Virus record (IMG/VR): IMGVR_UViG_3300032304_000773
Coordinates: 1 to 27,592 of that record
Strand: one strand, 5' to 3'
Length of the DNA stretch: 27,592 nt
From: a virus
The notes beneath the pieces were generated by a model. That model saw only the letters and a program-made list of their open reading frames with translations, searched no databases and was not told the origin of the DNA. The position numbers and the translations under genes are program-made. Positions 3,600 through 15,359 of this stretch are shown piece by piece (the stretch's first letter is position 1; every line of letters starts with the position of its first letter).

Positions 3600-3927
3600 A
3601 TCCCATCTTTATACCATCGGATGATAGTATGTACCATATGCCATCAACAAATTGAAACTGAACACAGGCACCTCTCTCGATGTCTAATTGATCCCAATCT
3701 TCATCAATTCTATTTTGATCAGGAACGATAATACAAGATGTTAAAGTTTTAATAATAATTTTTTCGGTGGTGGAGGAATTAAGTTCTATCGTGGACTTCT
3801 CAATATCTCTAATGATAAGTAAAGTTTCTCCATTTGTTGAATAATAGTCTTGAGAAACAACTTTAGTTTTTGGTTCCTCAATTATTTTTTCACCTAAATT
3901 TACTACTTTTCTATTTGGACGCATCAT
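3598..3927 (-). CDS. Small beta-rich protein of unknown function, probably structural
   Basis: 109 residues, with no signal peptide or membrane segment. Residues 1-25 are charged and flexible. Residues 30-109 alternate hydrophobic and polar residues as in a beta-sandwich, with the segments IELNSSTTEKIIIK, CIIVPDQNRIDEDWDQLDIE and CVQFQFVDGIWYILSSDGIK. I recall similar small domains among phage virion proteins, but I cannot name the family. Its ATG (3927-3925) overlaps the TGA of the upstream gp13-like gene (3926-3924) as ATGA, so translation is probably coupled. It is the last gene of the leftward operon, and the tie to a neck gene suggests a small virion or neck-associated part. A second ATG follows directly. 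Confidence 0.65.
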   Translation of the reverse strand: MMRPNRKVVNLGEKIIEEPKTKVVSQDYYSTNGETLLIIRDIEKSTIELNSSTTEKIIIKTLTSCIIVPDQNRIDEDWDQLDIERGACVQFQFVDGIWYILSSDGIKMG

Positions 3928-5042
3928 ATAACATATATTTGTCGAGGCATTGCTCTGAACCTTAATTGTTTGTTAAGATTTTCCGCAAGTAAAGCCTCTC
4001 TCTCCATAATTTTTTCAGGACGAAGTCTTGTTAATCTACCATCAGCACCAATTAATTCATCAATTAATTTGGTTTTTTCGTCTTTTGCTTCGGTGGCTAA
4101 CGATGTGTAATCCATAGTTAAATCGGCATCAGGAGTTTTTAAACTACCACTAAACTTACCTCTAACTCTGGATAAAGTTTCTTTACAATAGGCGGTGAAC
4201 CATCTTCTGATCCATATTTGTGCGGGGTTATTAAGATCGTCCCAAGATAATTGATTATATGGTACATCTGATGGTAACTTAATAATATCAGGATTGTCCG
4301 CCAAACACTTGTCTCTATCACCTTGTGATGTATCGTAGTACCAATACCAAACACGACCCTGCATCAATTCATAATTACCAAAGTCAAATTTACCACCAGG
4401 AACCTGCATCAGTTGTAACGCCTTTTTACCTTCGGGTAATGCGGTAATTCTATATGTTAAGTCGCCAGCAATAAGTCTTCTTTGGATATTAATTTCCTGC
4501 ATACTCAATAACATATCAAAAGCCGGTGTCATATAAAATGATCCCCCACCCGTTTGAGCCATACCGGCAGGACCTGAGATACCTCCACCGGCAATTCCAC
4601 CAAATCCCCATGGATTAACCATCATGTTATTTAATGTTGGTGGTGAAAACCATAAAACCTCATTAATTTCACGACCAGCAGGTATTTCATATATTTGTTG
4701 GTTTGCTTGTAATTGTACATAATCTTTCTTCAAAACCCAATCACCGCTTGCCTGTAAACCAACAATTTTAGAGTAAGCGTATTGATATCTTTCCTCGTAA
4801 TCCAAACTCTTGGTAAGGAATGCTCTTGATAATGATTGAGTATCTAAATTTAGATTATATAATGAAGTCCACTGAGATTCCGTTAACCAATCTTGTACAT
4901 ATTGTGAGTAATCGTCGATTGAATACTCCAATAGAGTATCCATCATTTCATCTTCTAATTCTACAGATCTTAAGGGCGCACCTAATAAATGTCTTACCTT
5001 TTGGTAGAATTTTGTTCTTTCCGGTTCAGAGATAATTGCCAT
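3924..5042 (-). CDS. Neck protein, T4 gp13-like (head-tail connector)
   Basis: 372 residues (T4 gp13 has 309). The N-terminus, residues 10-50, has the helical pattern FYQKVRHLLGAP followed by an acidic helix, DEMMDTLLEYSIDDYSQYV. This matches the start of gp13-type neck proteins, in which KLGAP is followed by an acidic amphipathic helix. A Gly/Pro/Met-rich loop (about 134-170) looks inserted. The end, around IWIRRWFTAYCKETLSRVRGKF, is the conserved C-terminal helix of the same group. The role by family is sealing the filled head and joining it to the tail. Its translation is coupled to the following 109-residue gene, and it follows the fusion gene by 24 bases. The family assignment rests on motif memory, so a different connector is possible. 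Confidence 0.6.
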   Translation of the reverse strand: MAIISEPERTKFYQKVRHLLGAPLRSVELEDEMMDTLLEYSIDDYSQYVQDWLTESQWTSLYNLNLDTQSLSRAFLTKSLDYEERYQYAYSKIVGLQASGDWVLKKDYVQLQANQQIYEIPAGREINEVLWFSPPTLNNMMVNPWGFGGIAGGGISGPAGMAQTGGGSFYMTPAFDMLLSMQEINIQRRLIAGDLTYRITALPEGKKALQLMQVPGGKFDFGNYELMQGRVWYWYYDTSQGDRDKCLADNPDIIKLPSDVPYNQLSWDDLNNPAQIWIRRWFTAYCKETLSRVRGKFSGSLKTPDADLTMDYTSLATEAKDEKTKLIDELIGADGRLTRLRPEKIMEREALLAENLNKQLRFRAMPRQIYVI

Positions 5043-5066: not shown

Positions 5067-7205
5067 TTAACCAGTAATAATTTTTAGGATTTTGTTATTA
5101 AAGTAATTGGTCACCTCGTTAATTGAGTCTTCATATCCAAGTTCTTTTAGTTTGTTTTTGAAGTACTCAATTCTTGTTTTATAAAACTCAACCTCCTTAT
5201 CGGTGTCTCGTTTGATACCAGATTTAACGGGAACTTTTGGTTTTTCTTGTTTCATATCAAGTTTAAAGTTACTTTTAAGTGGCATCTCGTAGTAATAGAT
5301 ATAGAATGGTGGGAACTTATTTGGGTTACCTACCGTCAACATTTTATTAAAATCATTCCTGAACATAATATATCTGTTTGTCGATCTGTCAACATACATA
5401 ATCACATCAACATTCTCACCCTTATATTTGTTTTGATTGTGCCATGAAGAAACCTTAAAGTAGTAACCTCTATCACCACTATCGTAAAATTCAATATCTT
5501 CACCCATAAATGGTTTTACTTGAAAATAAATTGGATCTTGTTTTGGAAATTTAAGTACGATATCCTGACCTTTTTTTCTATCGTTAACATCACCCGAACA
5601 ATGTTCATAAAGTTCGTATTCAATTCCAGCCTTATCAGGATCTAAATTATAAACTTCTCGGATCGTTTTAATTGCGTATGTTTCATTTTCTTTACCGATA
5701 AGTATTGTACCTAAATTTAGTTTAACTAATCTTTCAGTATACATACCATCGTTAGAGAATAAATCACTAGCATTGTTTCTAATCCATGTTTTTAAATCTT
5801 CTTCCCCATTAGTCTCCTCCATCCATATTTTTTGGATTTCGTCTTTTACTCTACTATTTGTATCAAATCTATTAATGATCGACCATTGACTGGTTCCCCC
5901 ATTTTTTTTCTCAGAGTAATCACCACCTAAGATACCAACATCAGTTGAACACTTTTTGGTCTGTATTTGACCTAAACACCCATACTTATATTGTTTCCCA
6001 AAACAACCTTCATATTGTGAATTAACCAATTCCCTCATTTGTTTTGGTGTGTATGGGAATGAATTTTGATTGACCTTCTCAGTTAATATTTTTTTAACAT
6101 TAACATTTTCTTTTAAGGTTTTTTTCTTTGTTTTTGATTGATAAAGATCCTCAACGAATTCCCAATTTACATGATCCCAAAATTTAGAAATATATTCGTC
6201 TCTTTTGTTTTGGTACTTTAAATAATAAGCATGTTCCCATACATCAAGACCAAGAAGTGGATAACCCCCACCTTTAACAACATCCATTAATGGATTGTCT
6301 TGATTAGGTGTTGACATGATTTTTAATTTATTATCCTTACCTAAAACTAACCAAGCCCAACCAGAACCAAATCTTGTTTTGGCAACTTCGTTAAATTCTG
6401 TTTTAAGTTTTTTAATATTACCGAAATCGGATTTAATTTTTTTAGAGATCTCACCTTTAGGTATTTGTTTCTTTGGTGACAACATCTTCCAAAATAATGC
6501 GTGGTTAAAAGCACCACCACCATTATCTCTAACTTTATCGTCAAATTTACTTATGGACTTAACAATTTCTTCTAAATCCATATCACCATCTTTACCCTTT
6601 AAAGCGTTATTTAATTTCTTAACATAACCTTTATAGTGTTTGTTGTAATGAATGTCCATGGTTTTTGGATCAACAAAACTTCTTAGAGATGCGTATGAGT
6701 AAGGGAGTTTATCAATACCGATTTTTTTCATTTCGGTTAAAATATCTTTTCTAAGGTTATGAACCTCAACAAGTAATATTTGTTCGTTGATTAACTCTAT
6801 TTTTTTATTAATGACTTTAGACTCAAAAATTTGTTTGTCATGCTCAGGATATTCTTTTTCAAACATCTTCATTAGTTTTCCTGCTTCGGCATTTGCTTCG
6901 TCTTCGTTTTGACCACCAATGTCAGGACCATGTTCTCTGTCAAGTACGGTCATTTGATATTGGTGAACCCACTCATGTGCTAAGGTTCTTAAGATGTCCC
7001 TATTCATTCGACCTTTAGTAAGTACCTTTAATAAATTTTTATCTGATCTACTACCTGTGGTCATCCCACCAACTCTTTCGGGTAAGAAATGAATTCTAAA
7101 TTCACTATTAAGGGGAAAATGTTTTTGTAGGAATGTACAAAAATCTTCTACGAGTTCTTTGTTTTTTTTATAATCCTTATCAACATATGTTATTGAAACC
7201 TTCAT
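5067..7205 (-). CDS. Zincin metallopeptidase-like / Mn-Fe superoxide dismutase / nuclease-like fusion protein
   Basis: One uninterrupted 712-residue frame with three parts. (1) Residues 1-125 are a zincin-like domain with H77-E78-W79-V80-H81 and the downstream segment NEDEANAEAG (about 100-109), which could supply a third zinc ligand. (2) Residues 164-356 are a full Mn/Fe superoxide dismutase with all four metal ligands, H186, H235, D321 and H325; the signature DVWEHAYY and Gln302 in TPNQDNPLM favour the Mn type. (3) Residues 380-712 are unrecognised, with GQDIV (546-550) and FQVK (561-564) as in PD-(D/E)XK nucleases. A Lys-rich linker lies at 357-375. Domain 2 would convert superoxide to peroxide and oxygen. 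It stands between a helicase and a neck gene under a TATTTAT motif, so a late, perhaps virion-carried, protein is possible. There is no signal peptide. Confidence 0.85.
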   Translation of the reverse strand: MKVSITYVDKDYKKNKELVEDFCTFLQKHFPLNSEFRIHFLPERVGGMTTGSRSDKNLLKVLTKGRMNRDILRTLAHEWVHQYQMTVLDREHGPDIGGQNEDEANAEAGKLMKMFEKEYPEHDKQIFESKVINKKIELINEQILLVEVHNLRKDILTEMKKIGIDKLPYSYASLRSFVDPKTMDIHYNKHYKGYVKKLNNALKGKDGDMDLEEIVKSISKFDDKVRDNGGGAFNHALFWKMLSPKKQIPKGEISKKIKSDFGNIKKLKTEFNEVAKTRFGSGWAWLVLGKDNKLKIMSTPNQDNPLMDVVKGGGYPLLGLDVWEHAYYLKYQNKRDEYISKFWDHVNWEFVEDLYQSKTKKKTLKENVNVKKILTEKVNQNSFPYTPKQMRELVNSQYEGCFGKQYKYGCLGQIQTKKCSTDVGILGGDYSEKKNGGTSQWSIINRFDTNSRVKDEIQKIWMEETNGEEDLKTWIRNNASDLFSNDGMYTERLVKLNLGTILIGKENETYAIKTIREVYNLDPDKAGIEYELYEHCSGDVNDRKKGQDIVLKFPKQDPIYFQVKPFMGEDIEFYDSGDRGYYFKVSSWHNQNKYKGENVDVIMYVDRSTNRYIMFRNDFNKMLTVGNPNKFPPFYIYYYEMPLKSNFKLDMKQEKPKVPVKSGIKRDTDKEVEFYKTRIEYFKNKLKELGYEDSINEVTNYFNNKILKIITG

Positions 7206-7210
7206 TAAAC

Positions 7211-7217
7211 ATAAATA
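7211..7217 (-). promoter_or_regulatory. TATTTAT motif upstream of the fusion gene
   Basis: Minus-strand TATTTAT, in the context TTAATATTTATG, ends only 5 bases before the ATG at 7205. If it is a -10 element, the transcript would start at or near the start codon (leaderless). Confidence 0.5.
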
Positions 7218-7234
7218 TTAAGATTTATGAAAGA

Positions 7235-8998
7235 TTAGTTTCGTTTGTTGATTAACTTTAAAATATCTTCTACCACATCCGCAGAATTGAAACTAACCTC
7301 ATCACCCATTACGGTTCTGATAATTTCTTTTTTCTTATTTAGAATGTCGTAAATCGCACCTTCTATTGTGTTATCAAATAGGGGATAATAAACCAACACA
7401 TTTGATTTTTGACCATAACGATATGCTCGGTCTTCGGCTTGTGCGTGTTCCGCAGGTACAAAGGATAAGTCGTTCATAATAACAACCTCAGCTGCGGTTA
7501 ATGTTAAACCCACACCCGCAGCCTTTAAGTTACCAACAAATACATTTATTTTTTCGTCGTTTTGGAATTGGTCAACAGCCTGTTGTCTTACTGAGTTAGA
7601 ACAACTACCATCAAGATAAACCGCTTTTTTACCAAAATGTTGGTAGATACTTTGGAGTGTGTCGGTAAAGTTGGTGAAGATAATTACCTTCTTACCTTGT
7701 TCAATAATGTTTTCAGCGAACTCAATAGTTTGTTTAACTTTTTCATTGGCAATCACCTTTCTAACTTTCATTAGTTTTGAGAACTGAACCGTAAGTGATG
7801 AAGACTCGTCAGGATTTTTATCATACCAATCATAATATTCACCCATAAGTTCTTCGTACTCTTTGGATTGTAATCTTAGGTAGACAGGTGTGATGATTTT
7901 ATCAGGTAAGTCTAACACATCTTCTTTTAATCTACGAAGGATTTGTTTTGATGTCCGATCTCTTAATTCCTCGAGGTTAGATGCTCCCGATACATTCCAA
8001 ACTTTTCTCTTGCCCGCAGTGAATTGGTATCCTTGACAATAACGAATCGCATAAGCCATCCAATTTTGAGCAACAGGACTTTCGATGAGGTTTAACAAAT
8101 TATAATAATTCATTGGTCTTGATGTCATCGGTGTACCTGTCAACAACCAAACTCTATTAATATTCTTTGCGAAATGATTAATGAGTTTAGTTCTTTGAGC
8201 CTGTGCGTTGGATACCATATGTGCCTCATCTAAGATAACCAAGTCAAAATTACTTTTAAGTAGTAGTGATTCACTTTTGTCTTTTGTGTCGTGGAAATTT
8301 TTTAGGATATCATAATTAACAATTACAAAATCAGATTCAGTTGAAAATTTCTTACCTTCCGCAATAAAAACAGGTCTATCTGAATAATTTTCAATTTCTC
8401 GTTGCCAGTTGATCTTTAATGATGCGGGACAAACAATTAGAATTTTTTTCGCACCTGTTTCTAATGCCGCGATAATAGTTGCGGTAGTTTTACCAAGACC
8501 CATATCATCGGCAAGAATAAATCTTTTTGACCCCGCCAATTTTTCAATCGCAATCTTTTGATGTTCTAATGGTGGTCTATGACCATACTTTGAGTAATCA
8601 ACCTTAACCTCTTCCACATTGTGACTCTTGATTAAGGCAGATTTAGGAACCCAAAACTCACTTAATATATCTTTCTCGAAGAACTTACCCCAAACATGAT
8701 AAGATTTTTCTTTCTCAACTAAAAGTTTCTCAATAAAAATCTGTTTAGGTATTTCTAACAAATATCTTTCTTCGGCAAACTTTTTAGCAAAATATGTATC
8801 TAACTCAACCCACTTACGAGCAACCTTAGGTTTGGTGTCTTGATAAGTAATAATATAATCCGACTGAGCACGAGTGGGGAAGAATTTTTTATTTGATACC
8901 TTCTTATGTTGTAGGTATAATATATAGTTATTGGCACCTGAATATACATCGAGTATATCTAATGCCTTATGTTCTTTTAATTGTTGCTGGTTTTCCAA
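7235..8998 (-). CDS. SNF2-family DNA helicase/translocase
   Basis: 587 residues with the complete superfamily 2 motif set in SNF2 style: a Q-like segment PLEHQKIAI (143-151), motif I DDMGLGKT (164-171), motif Ia ending CPASLKINW, motif II DEAH (257-260), motif III LTGTP (286-290), motif IV IIFTNF, motif V GVGLTLTAA (495-503) and motif VI QAEDRAYRYGQ (520-530). The QaeDRayRyGQ form is typical of SNF2/SMARCAL1-like enzymes. These translocate on duplex DNA with ATP and serve in fork remodelling or recombination; T4 uses UvsW for related tasks. Residues 1-135 are a lineage-specific N-terminus. The start is TTG at 8998: no ATG lies upstream in frame, and the next Met (residue 166) is inside motif I. 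It is the first gene of the leftward cluster, 29 bases before the fusion gene. Confidence 0.93.
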   Translation of the reverse strand: MENQQQLKEHKALDILDVYSGANNYILYLQHKKVSNKKFFPTRAQSDYIITYQDTKPKVARKWVELDTYFAKKFAEERYLLEIPKQIFIEKLLVEKEKSYHVWGKFFEKDILSEFWVPKSALIKSHNVEEVKVDYSKYGHRPPLEHQKIAIEKLAGSKRFILADDMGLGKTTATIIAALETGAKKILIVCPASLKINWQREIENYSDRPVFIAEGKKFSTESDFVIVNYDILKNFHDTKDKSESLLLKSNFDLVILDEAHMVSNAQAQRTKLINHFAKNINRVWLLTGTPMTSRPMNYYNLLNLIESPVAQNWMAYAIRYCQGYQFTAGKRKVWNVSGASNLEELRDRTSKQILRRLKEDVLDLPDKIITPVYLRLQSKEYEELMGEYYDWYDKNPDESSSLTVQFSKLMKVRKVIANEKVKQTIEFAENIIEQGKKVIIFTNFTDTLQSIYQHFGKKAVYLDGSCSNSVRQQAVDQFQNDEKINVFVGNLKAAGVGLTLTAAEVVIMNDLSFVPAEHAQAEDRAYRYGQKSNVLVYYPLFDNTIEGAIYDILNKKKEIIRTVMGDEVSFNSADVVEDILKLINKRN

Positions 8999-14531: not shown

Positions 14532-15359
14532 ATGAATTATAAGAAAGTTGTTAGACAGATTATATCTGAGATTATTAATGATCAGATGAAACCCACGATG
14601 AAATACTATGCTTTTGACTGGGACGATAATCTTATGTACATGCCGACTAAAATTTATCTTAAAGATGAAGACGGAAAAGTTGTTGGTATGTCAACAGAAG
14701 ATTTTGCGGAATATAGAACTGAAATAGGTAAGGAACCTTTCGAATATGAGGGACATACTATTGTTGGTTTCGATGACGAAGCGTTTAGAGATTTCAAAGT
14801 ACCGGGAGATAAAGGTTTCATTAGAGATGCGATGACAGCACCAACAGGACCAGCATGGAGTGATTTTGTTGAGGCAATCAATAATGGGTCAATATTTGCG
14901 ATTGTTACAGCAAGAGGACACACACCTACCGTTCTTAAAAACGCAATTTACAATTTAATTAAGAAAAACAAACACGGAATTAGTGAAAAAGAATTGGTTA
15001 AAAACTTAAAAAAGTATAGAGAACTTGCCGATGAAGATGATTTGTCTGACGATGAATTAGTTAGAGTGTATTTAGACATGAATAAATACCACCCTGTAAC
15101 TTTCGGTGAAGGATCTGCTGCCAATCCAGAGCAATTAAAAGTTGATGCTATGAAAGAATTTATGACTTATGTAAATAATTTATCTAGAAGGCTGCAAGAA
15201 AAGGCATTTATGAAAAACAAGATAAGTAATTACTTTGTACCATATGTAGGTTTTTCAGATGACGACTTAAGGAATGTTCAAGCAATGAAGAAACACTTTG
15301 ATGATGAATCAGGATTAGATATTTATCATACTGGAGGAGGAAATAAAACTAAATATTAA
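14532..15359 (+). CDS. HAD-superfamily phosphatase-like protein
   Basis: 275 residues. HAD motif I is FDWDDNL (nucleophile D29, acid/base D31), motif II is the TARGH threonine (IVTARGHT, after a hydrophobic strand), a Lys-rich helix follows, and motif IV is GFSDDDLRN (D243, D244). These are the residues of Mg-dependent phosphoryl transfer; the substrate cannot be read from sequence, and a nucleotide or DNA/RNA 3'-phosphate is only a possibility by analogy with T4 polynucleotide phosphatase. A long acidic and Lys-rich helical insert lies between motifs II and IV. The first 18 residues, MNYKKVVRQIISEIINDQ, form an amphipathic helix not part of the HAD fold. Met19 or Met23 are alternative starts. 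The gene sits as a separate unit between sheath and tube, with a terminator before it and a motif at its start. Confidence 0.8.
   Translation: MNYKKVVRQIISEIINDQMKPTMKYYAFDWDDNLMYMPTKIYLKDEDGKVVGMSTEDFAEYRTEIGKEPFEYEGHTIVGFDDEAFRDFKVPGDKGFIRDAMTAPTGPAWSDFVEAINNGSIFAIVTARGHTPTVLKNAIYNLIKKNKHGISEKELVKNLKKYRELADEDDLSDDELVRVYLDMNKYHPVTFGEGSAANPEQLKVDAMKEFMTYVNNLSRRLQEKAFMKNKISNYFVPYVGFSDDDLRNVQAMKKHFDDESGLDIYHTGGGNKTKY

Follow-up and report, generated by a model that had tools for sequence, protein, structure and literature searches.

The stretch of viral DNA analysed here (IMG/VR record IMGVR_UViG_3300032304_000773, positions 1 to 27,592; hereafter the window, 27,592 nt or 27.6 kb) carries on its minus strand one open reading frame (ORF) from position 7205 to 5067, encoding 712 amino acids (aa) with an ATG start and no internal stops. 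Positions below follow window numbering, and residues that of the 712-aa protein. As deduced from the ORF, Pfam matches, at least 80 loci and fixed synteny, the gene (5067–7205) joins a zincin-like domain, a superoxide dismutase (SOD) and a PD-(D/E)XK-like cargo. Judging by its joints, the product very probably serves as a polyprotein destined for cleavage rather than as a working fusion enzyme, and we consider it likely that this polyprotein is targeted to the phage head, cut there by an S77 protease and its products ejected with the DNA, delivering SOD and other effectors.

Immediately upstream in the same run lies a SNF2-type helicase gene (7235–8998, minus strand; Pfam PF00176, phrog_62), and the next gene downstream (3924–5042, minus strand) encodes a neck or head–tail adaptor homologue (phrog_211, E = 1.3e-9), confirming the link to a neck gene proposed in an earlier note made from the sequence alone. 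The phrog_211 match is distant, yet the same position is occupied in relatives. At least 80 IMG/VR loci encode relatives of the polyprotein, and within contig reach all 80 fetched loci kept the order SNF2 helicase, polyprotein gene, neck gene, with polB and tail genes as neighbours. A homologue from a different metagenome (L002) is collinear with residues 1–711 at 81% identity. Together with the constant gene order this rules out an assembly chimera or frameshift, which the earlier note had named as a worry, and marks the gene as a core gene; contigs of up to 304 kb identify the carriers as jumbo phages. Broader IMG/VR scans returned 575 stretches with related SODs and 438 with related zincins. 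The zincin–SOD fusion is common in IMG/VR, and the lineage of giant water-borne phages is widespread. The rarity that the earlier note had assumed, both for SOD in tailed phages and for this form of fusion, was thus not borne out.

The SOD domain (residues 164–356; 6138–6716, minus strand) was delimited by Pfam, solved MnSODs and invariant residues. Both halves of the family were detected, Sod_Fe_N at residues 164–243 (E = 1.3e-19; 70.9 bits against a curated cut-off of 27) and Sod_Fe_C at residues 249–353 (E = 2.2e-40; 137.2 bits against 20.9), and the family profile could be aligned along its full length to solved MnSODs, best to 6gsc (1.9e-70). Against these structures, H186, H235, D321 and H325 fall on the metal-ligand columns and Gln302 on the Mn-type Gln column, and all five residues are invariant in 33 relatives, in line with the complete Mn-type enzyme claimed previously. 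The SOD segments of relatives are 71–94% identical to that of the window, and this conservation, combined with the invariant active site, suggests selection on the predicted catalysis. A structural or metal-storage role of the SOD fold in the head or neck, without dismutase function, would fit the adjoining neck gene and its conserved synteny, but we regard it as highly improbable, given the invariance of the four ligands, the Mn-type Gln and neighbouring active-site residues, the level of identity, and the occurrence of the SOD as a separate gene elsewhere.

With respect to origin, the phage SODs form a single clade (99/95) on a long branch of its own, and Bacteroidota SODs are the nearest cellular relatives by identity (49–53%). 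Acquisition from the host, suggested earlier on the grounds of this resemblance, is plausible from these comparisons as an old rather than a recent event; the resemblance itself held, but the tree, with its long branches, does not place the clade next to a particular cellular donor. MW462191 and several further 'phage' matches to plain SOD look bacterial by their neighbours (class C beta-lactamase, LysR/AmpR) and were excluded as phage evidence.

The N-terminal zincin-like domain (residues ~1–128; 6822–7205, minus strand) was defined by alignment, AlphaFold and the ends of stand-alone genes, as free zincin genes (L258/L268) terminate at the residue equivalent to E128. In the alignment of the 33 relatives, H77, E78 and H81 of the HEWVH motif (residues 77–81) are invariant, as is a Glu pair in the following helix (E101/E103), giving the HExxH plus third-ligand-Glu arrangement. 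AlphaFold predicts the domain at a predicted local distance difference test (pLDDT) score of ~70–93, with the zincin order strand–helix–three strands–two helices, which bears out the motif noted before. Searches with the zincin gave only sub-threshold Pfam matches (SprT-like, M78, DUF6055), no PHROGs match, nothing convincing in PADLOC and no significant match in a PDB profile search; IrrE-like and SprT-like proteins were among the BFVD structure matches.

Cargo module A (residues 383–712; 5070–6059, minus strand) is predicted to have a PD-(D/E)XK-like fold with a D…QxK motif, as indicated by AlphaFold, Foldseek, module shuffling and a stand-alone copy (L467). The C-terminal 355 residues were modelled at a mean pLDDT of 80, and Foldseek matched the cargo to I-Ssp6803I (E 2.1e-3, probability 1.00, low template modelling score); among its best PDB matches by structure are the PD-(D/E)XK enzymes I-Ssp6803I, DpnI and SPARDA nuclease subunits, all at modest scores. 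D191, Q205 and K207 of alignment A4 (GQD…FQVK) are invariant in 22 sequences, in keeping with the nuclease-like module that the earlier note read from this motif. A PDB profile search with cargo A gave no significant match, and for cargos A–D there was no Pfam match over cut-off and nothing convincing in PADLOC; in PHROGs, their only match was phrog_23806 (function not known, 3.7e-4), for one cargo D chain. Close to the C-terminus, an [LI]NE triplet (INE at residues 695–697 of the window protein, ~5115–5123; E340 of A4) is nearly invariant in cargo A and, by analogy with T4 Alt, a possible C-terminal processing site.

The three domains are joined by two linkers predicted to be disordered. Linker 1 (residues 129–161; 6723–6821, minus strand), recognised from conservation, pLDDT and split forms, contains E141 (INE), E147 (LVE) and E158 (LTE|MKKIG), whose codons lie at 6783–6785, 6765–6767 and 6732–6734, respectively; linker 2 (residues 360–382; 6060–6128, minus strand), recognised from conservation and pLDDT, contains E366 (LKE) and E376 (LTE). 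AlphaFold pLDDT falls below 50 in linker 2 and across residues 129–170. When residues 3–380 were screened in 33 orthologues for [LI]xE triplets retained by half or more of the rows, only these five emerged (E141 100%, E147 85%, E158 100%, E366 92%, E376 83%), all of them inside the linkers. Moreover, [LI]xE directly preceded the SOD methionine in 91 of 92 unique sequences with standard context. The unrelated cargos A, B and C each follow a leader whose first invariant glutamate (E9/E19 in A, E20 in B, E11 in C) ends an [LI]xE in most members, E9 and E19 of alignment A4 being the linker 2 sites and invariant. By their sequence, the joints appear tailored to the head protease of the phage itself. 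Translation might also start internally at the conserved Met159 (EMKKIG), either as a relic or as an extra start.

Relatives exchange cargo A for modules B, C or D, which are unrelated. Denoting the zincin as Z, the SOD as S and the cargos as A–E, unique closed chains comprised ZS (35), ZSA (34), ZSB (23), ZSC (17), ZSD (10), ZSDA (4), SE (7) and SAC (1), and free Z, S, A, D and E genes were also present. One chain, Z-S-D-D-A (L403), has five modules, with INE before each D and INEH…LSEN before A. Where the zincin is missing, the linker becomes the N-terminus of the SOD gene: L436 starts MKHIENKIKLITED…FLNE|MKKIGI, i.e. MKHIENKIKLITEDIQNVEKQENEVLFLNE|MKKIGI. Likewise, cargo A as a gene of its own (L467) starts MKYIFTES…KILINED, with the leader MKYIFTESQLDILKNKILINED, and in the SOD-A-C chain of L424 the A–C joint is the leader ITENMNSTIIITKEQ…FLISED with its own Met kept (MNSTIIITKEQAQIMNFLISED). 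One 222-kb virus contig and one contig binned with Fluviicola carry a SOD with the leader MNLKIVDILRE. Fused and split forms occupy the same syntenic slot, and the simplest explanation is that both yield the same products after processing.

Two side observations concern the remaining cargos. The GIDxxI…QIKPF motif of cargo E (L436, L423, L425, L427, L467) marks another QxK nuclease-like module, different from cargo A. Free cargo-D paralogues (~147–151 aa) form tandem arrays downstream of the SOD gene in L030, L033, L035 and L044; they carry MKIIITEN/MKIIISES leaders and adjoin the fused copy.

The shuffled and split chains bear on the main competing explanation, in which the [LI]xE triplets are incidental and the zincin itself cuts the chain, whether ahead of packaging, inside the head or once injected; such processing has been proposed for P1 DdrB and further polyvalent proteins. 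Zincin-like peptidases are the commonest domain of polyvalent proteins and are proposed processors there (PMC5512222), and the catalytic residues of the present zincin are invariant. Still, zincin-less chains (SE, SAC) and free cargo genes retain the same leaders, which argues against a need for the zincin, and the T4 S77 protease is specific for [LI]xE; we therefore judge self-processing unlikely. Even if it is not the chain processor, the zincin may act on host proteins.

Alternatively, the protein could be an uncut multidomain late enzyme, that is, the product of an auxiliary metabolic gene protecting the producing cell from superoxide and not packaged. Freshwater phages with several anti-oxidant genes, proposed to help the infected host, have been described (PMC6802176), and other jumbo phages, namely Vibrio phage 2.275.O and the Pseudomonas phages of Wroclawvirus, have plain genes for Mn/Fe SODs. 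These belong to the same SOD family and likewise to tailed phages, but are separate, unfused genes on very long branches, with ~28% identity to the window SOD. An auxiliary enzyme would leave the conserved [LI]xE triplets in the linkers, the unrelated exchangeable cargos and the leader-keeping split forms unexplained, and the gene's neighbours are neck and tail genes rather than metabolic ones. This explanation, too, appears improbable.

Further evidence for the head-targeting reading comes from upstream of the gene. A late-type element, ATATTTAT (7211–7218, minus strand), lies 5 bases before the ATG. The pattern [AG]TATTTAT occurred upstream of the zincin–SOD gene in the window and in 24/24 orthologues inspected, and before 71 of 292 genes of a relative, against ~2.8 expected by chance; genes preceded by it include those for the S77 protease, core, neck and tail proteins as well as leader-bearing genes. 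The late-type motif seen at first reading thus recurs in the lineage, also before many virion genes. The T4 late promoter TATAAATA was not enriched (6 found, 4.8 expected), the recurrent element being [AG]TATTTAT. In the window and in the 304-kb relative (G001), two distances from the element to the start codon were preferred, 4–6 and 13–16 bases; were it a –10 element, transcripts from the shorter distance would be almost leaderless.

T4 offers a precedent for leaders of this kind. Its internal proteins IPII and IPIII start with MKTYQEFIAE; cleavage by gp21 takes place after L/I-X-E, and a propeptide of 10 residues serves as the targeting signal of IPIII (PMC9026906). Among ten partial records of relatives, five had an S77 (gp21-type) protease (best 1.5e-23) and six a Gp23 capsid protein, the latter with LINE|AT near the expected maturation position. 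In the 304-kb relative, [LI]xE leaders were found in 58 of 376 predicted proteins against 7.9 in shuffled sequences, an excess somewhat inflated by the pattern having been written after examples were seen. Dozens of genes of no known function in this genome (L095–L110) have leaders such as MKIIITENQ, MKKVIRLTESDLTRIVKRVINE or MKDLIRHILKEE, and the leader-bearing genes of this kind make up a large candidate set of injected effectors. In the window, a 275-aa protein (gene 14532–15359, plus strand) with an FDWDDN motif, HAD-like by eye, starts with the leader MNYKKVVRQIISE (14532–14570), and its orthologue in the 304-kb relative begins MNYSVLTRQIIKE; from its leader it is likely another packaged protein.

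Alongside the observed domains, the conserved sites in disordered linkers, the protease and capsid protein of relatives, the module shuffling and the split forms, we propose the following course of events. The polyprotein gene would be expressed late, together with virion genes, and the leader-like linkers, the same kind of peptide as the capsid-targeting propeptides of T4 internal proteins, would bring the chain into the prohead core. There, the S77 (gp21-type) protease would cut after [L/I]-x-E at residues 141, 147, 158, 366 and 376, releasing the zincin, a SOD starting at Met159 and the nuclease-like cargo. When the particle next infects a cell, the freed parts would exit the head together with the DNA; inside that cell the SOD would eliminate superoxide, and the remaining parts would act on host proteins and DNA. 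The guess of the earlier note that the enzyme is packaged thereby gains support from the head-protease-type sites, the S77 protease and the leaders, although we infer packaging itself, as well as targeting, cleavage, ejection, enzyme activity and the target.

Several points weigh against this course of events. The S77 protease and Gp23 were seen in relatives only, as the 27.6-kb window ends short of the capsid genes. The window chain starts with the zincin and has its leader inside, unlike T4 internal proteins and unlike the zincin-less relatives, in which the leader stands at the N-terminus. [LI]xE is a short pattern, present 13 times in the window protein with unconserved copies elsewhere in the chain, and a V replaces L/I before the SOD in a few orthologues (L177, the LVSEM group). 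Finally, cellular SODs are dimers or tetramers of ~45–90 kDa, which may or may not pass through the tail in folded form.

Capsid-targeted internal proteins and polyvalent proteins are both already known. With the gp21-cut internal head proteins of T4 (IPI, IPII, IPIII, Alt), the present system shares short leaders ending in [LI]xE, interchangeable on accessory proteins, as well as the S77 protease and Gp23-type capsid protein of the phage lineage. Here, however, the leaders are internal, separating the two to five unrelated domains of a single chain, the SOD is a fixed cargo, and one relative has dozens of leader-bearing genes; with its internal leader, the window protein is not a plain member of the T4 type. 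Polyvalent proteins of phages and conjugative elements (Iyer et al. 2017) likewise combine unrelated enzymatic domains, including a zincin, in mosaic architectures with likely delivery on infection, and the window chain has three such predicted domains (zincin, SOD, PD-(D/E)XK-like). The zincin fits the described domain set, whereas SOD is unmentioned (PMC5512222), and the present joints have conserved head-protease-type sites, with chains fused or split exactly there.

Packaging of a virus-encoded SOD has a precedent in the Cu/Zn SOD of PBCV-1 (A245R), the product of a late gene, which is virion-packaged and linked with lower superoxide in infected cells (PMC7019647); that enzyme is of an unrelated family, from an algal virus, and a separate protein. 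The best structural match of the whole chain, and the second best of cargo A, was A0A6J5L953 ('superoxide dismutase', 501 aa, uncultured Caudovirales phage, BFVD), which thus appears to consist of SOD plus cargo A and is too short for zincin, SOD and cargo A in one chain. BFVD also lists a 127-aa zincin, A0A6J5L9U4. We found no study of A0A6J5L953, nor any description of SOD as a fixed cargo or of a shuffled polyprotein with head-protease-type joints in the open-access literature, of which coverage was incomplete.

More broadly, and with somewhat less confidence than for the fate of this protein, we lean towards a viral-polyprotein strategy for infection cargo. In a fixed slot next to the neck gene, capsid-targeted enzymes (peptidase, SOD, nucleases and modules of no known function) would be combined into one chain and separated by the head protease within the prohead, and effectors in equimolar amounts, an anti-oxidant enzyme among them, would enter the host with the DNA. 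The natural fused and split variants make this idea directly testable. If true, the T4 internal-protein system would extend from single leader-bearing proteins to modular polyproteins, and a sequence rule (a leader ending in [LI]xE plus a late-type element upstream) flags, in each genome, dozens of genes of no known function as candidates for injected effectors. Removing superoxide as infection begins would then be a delivered function, possibly directed against an oxidative host response, in a lineage of abundant aquatic phages.
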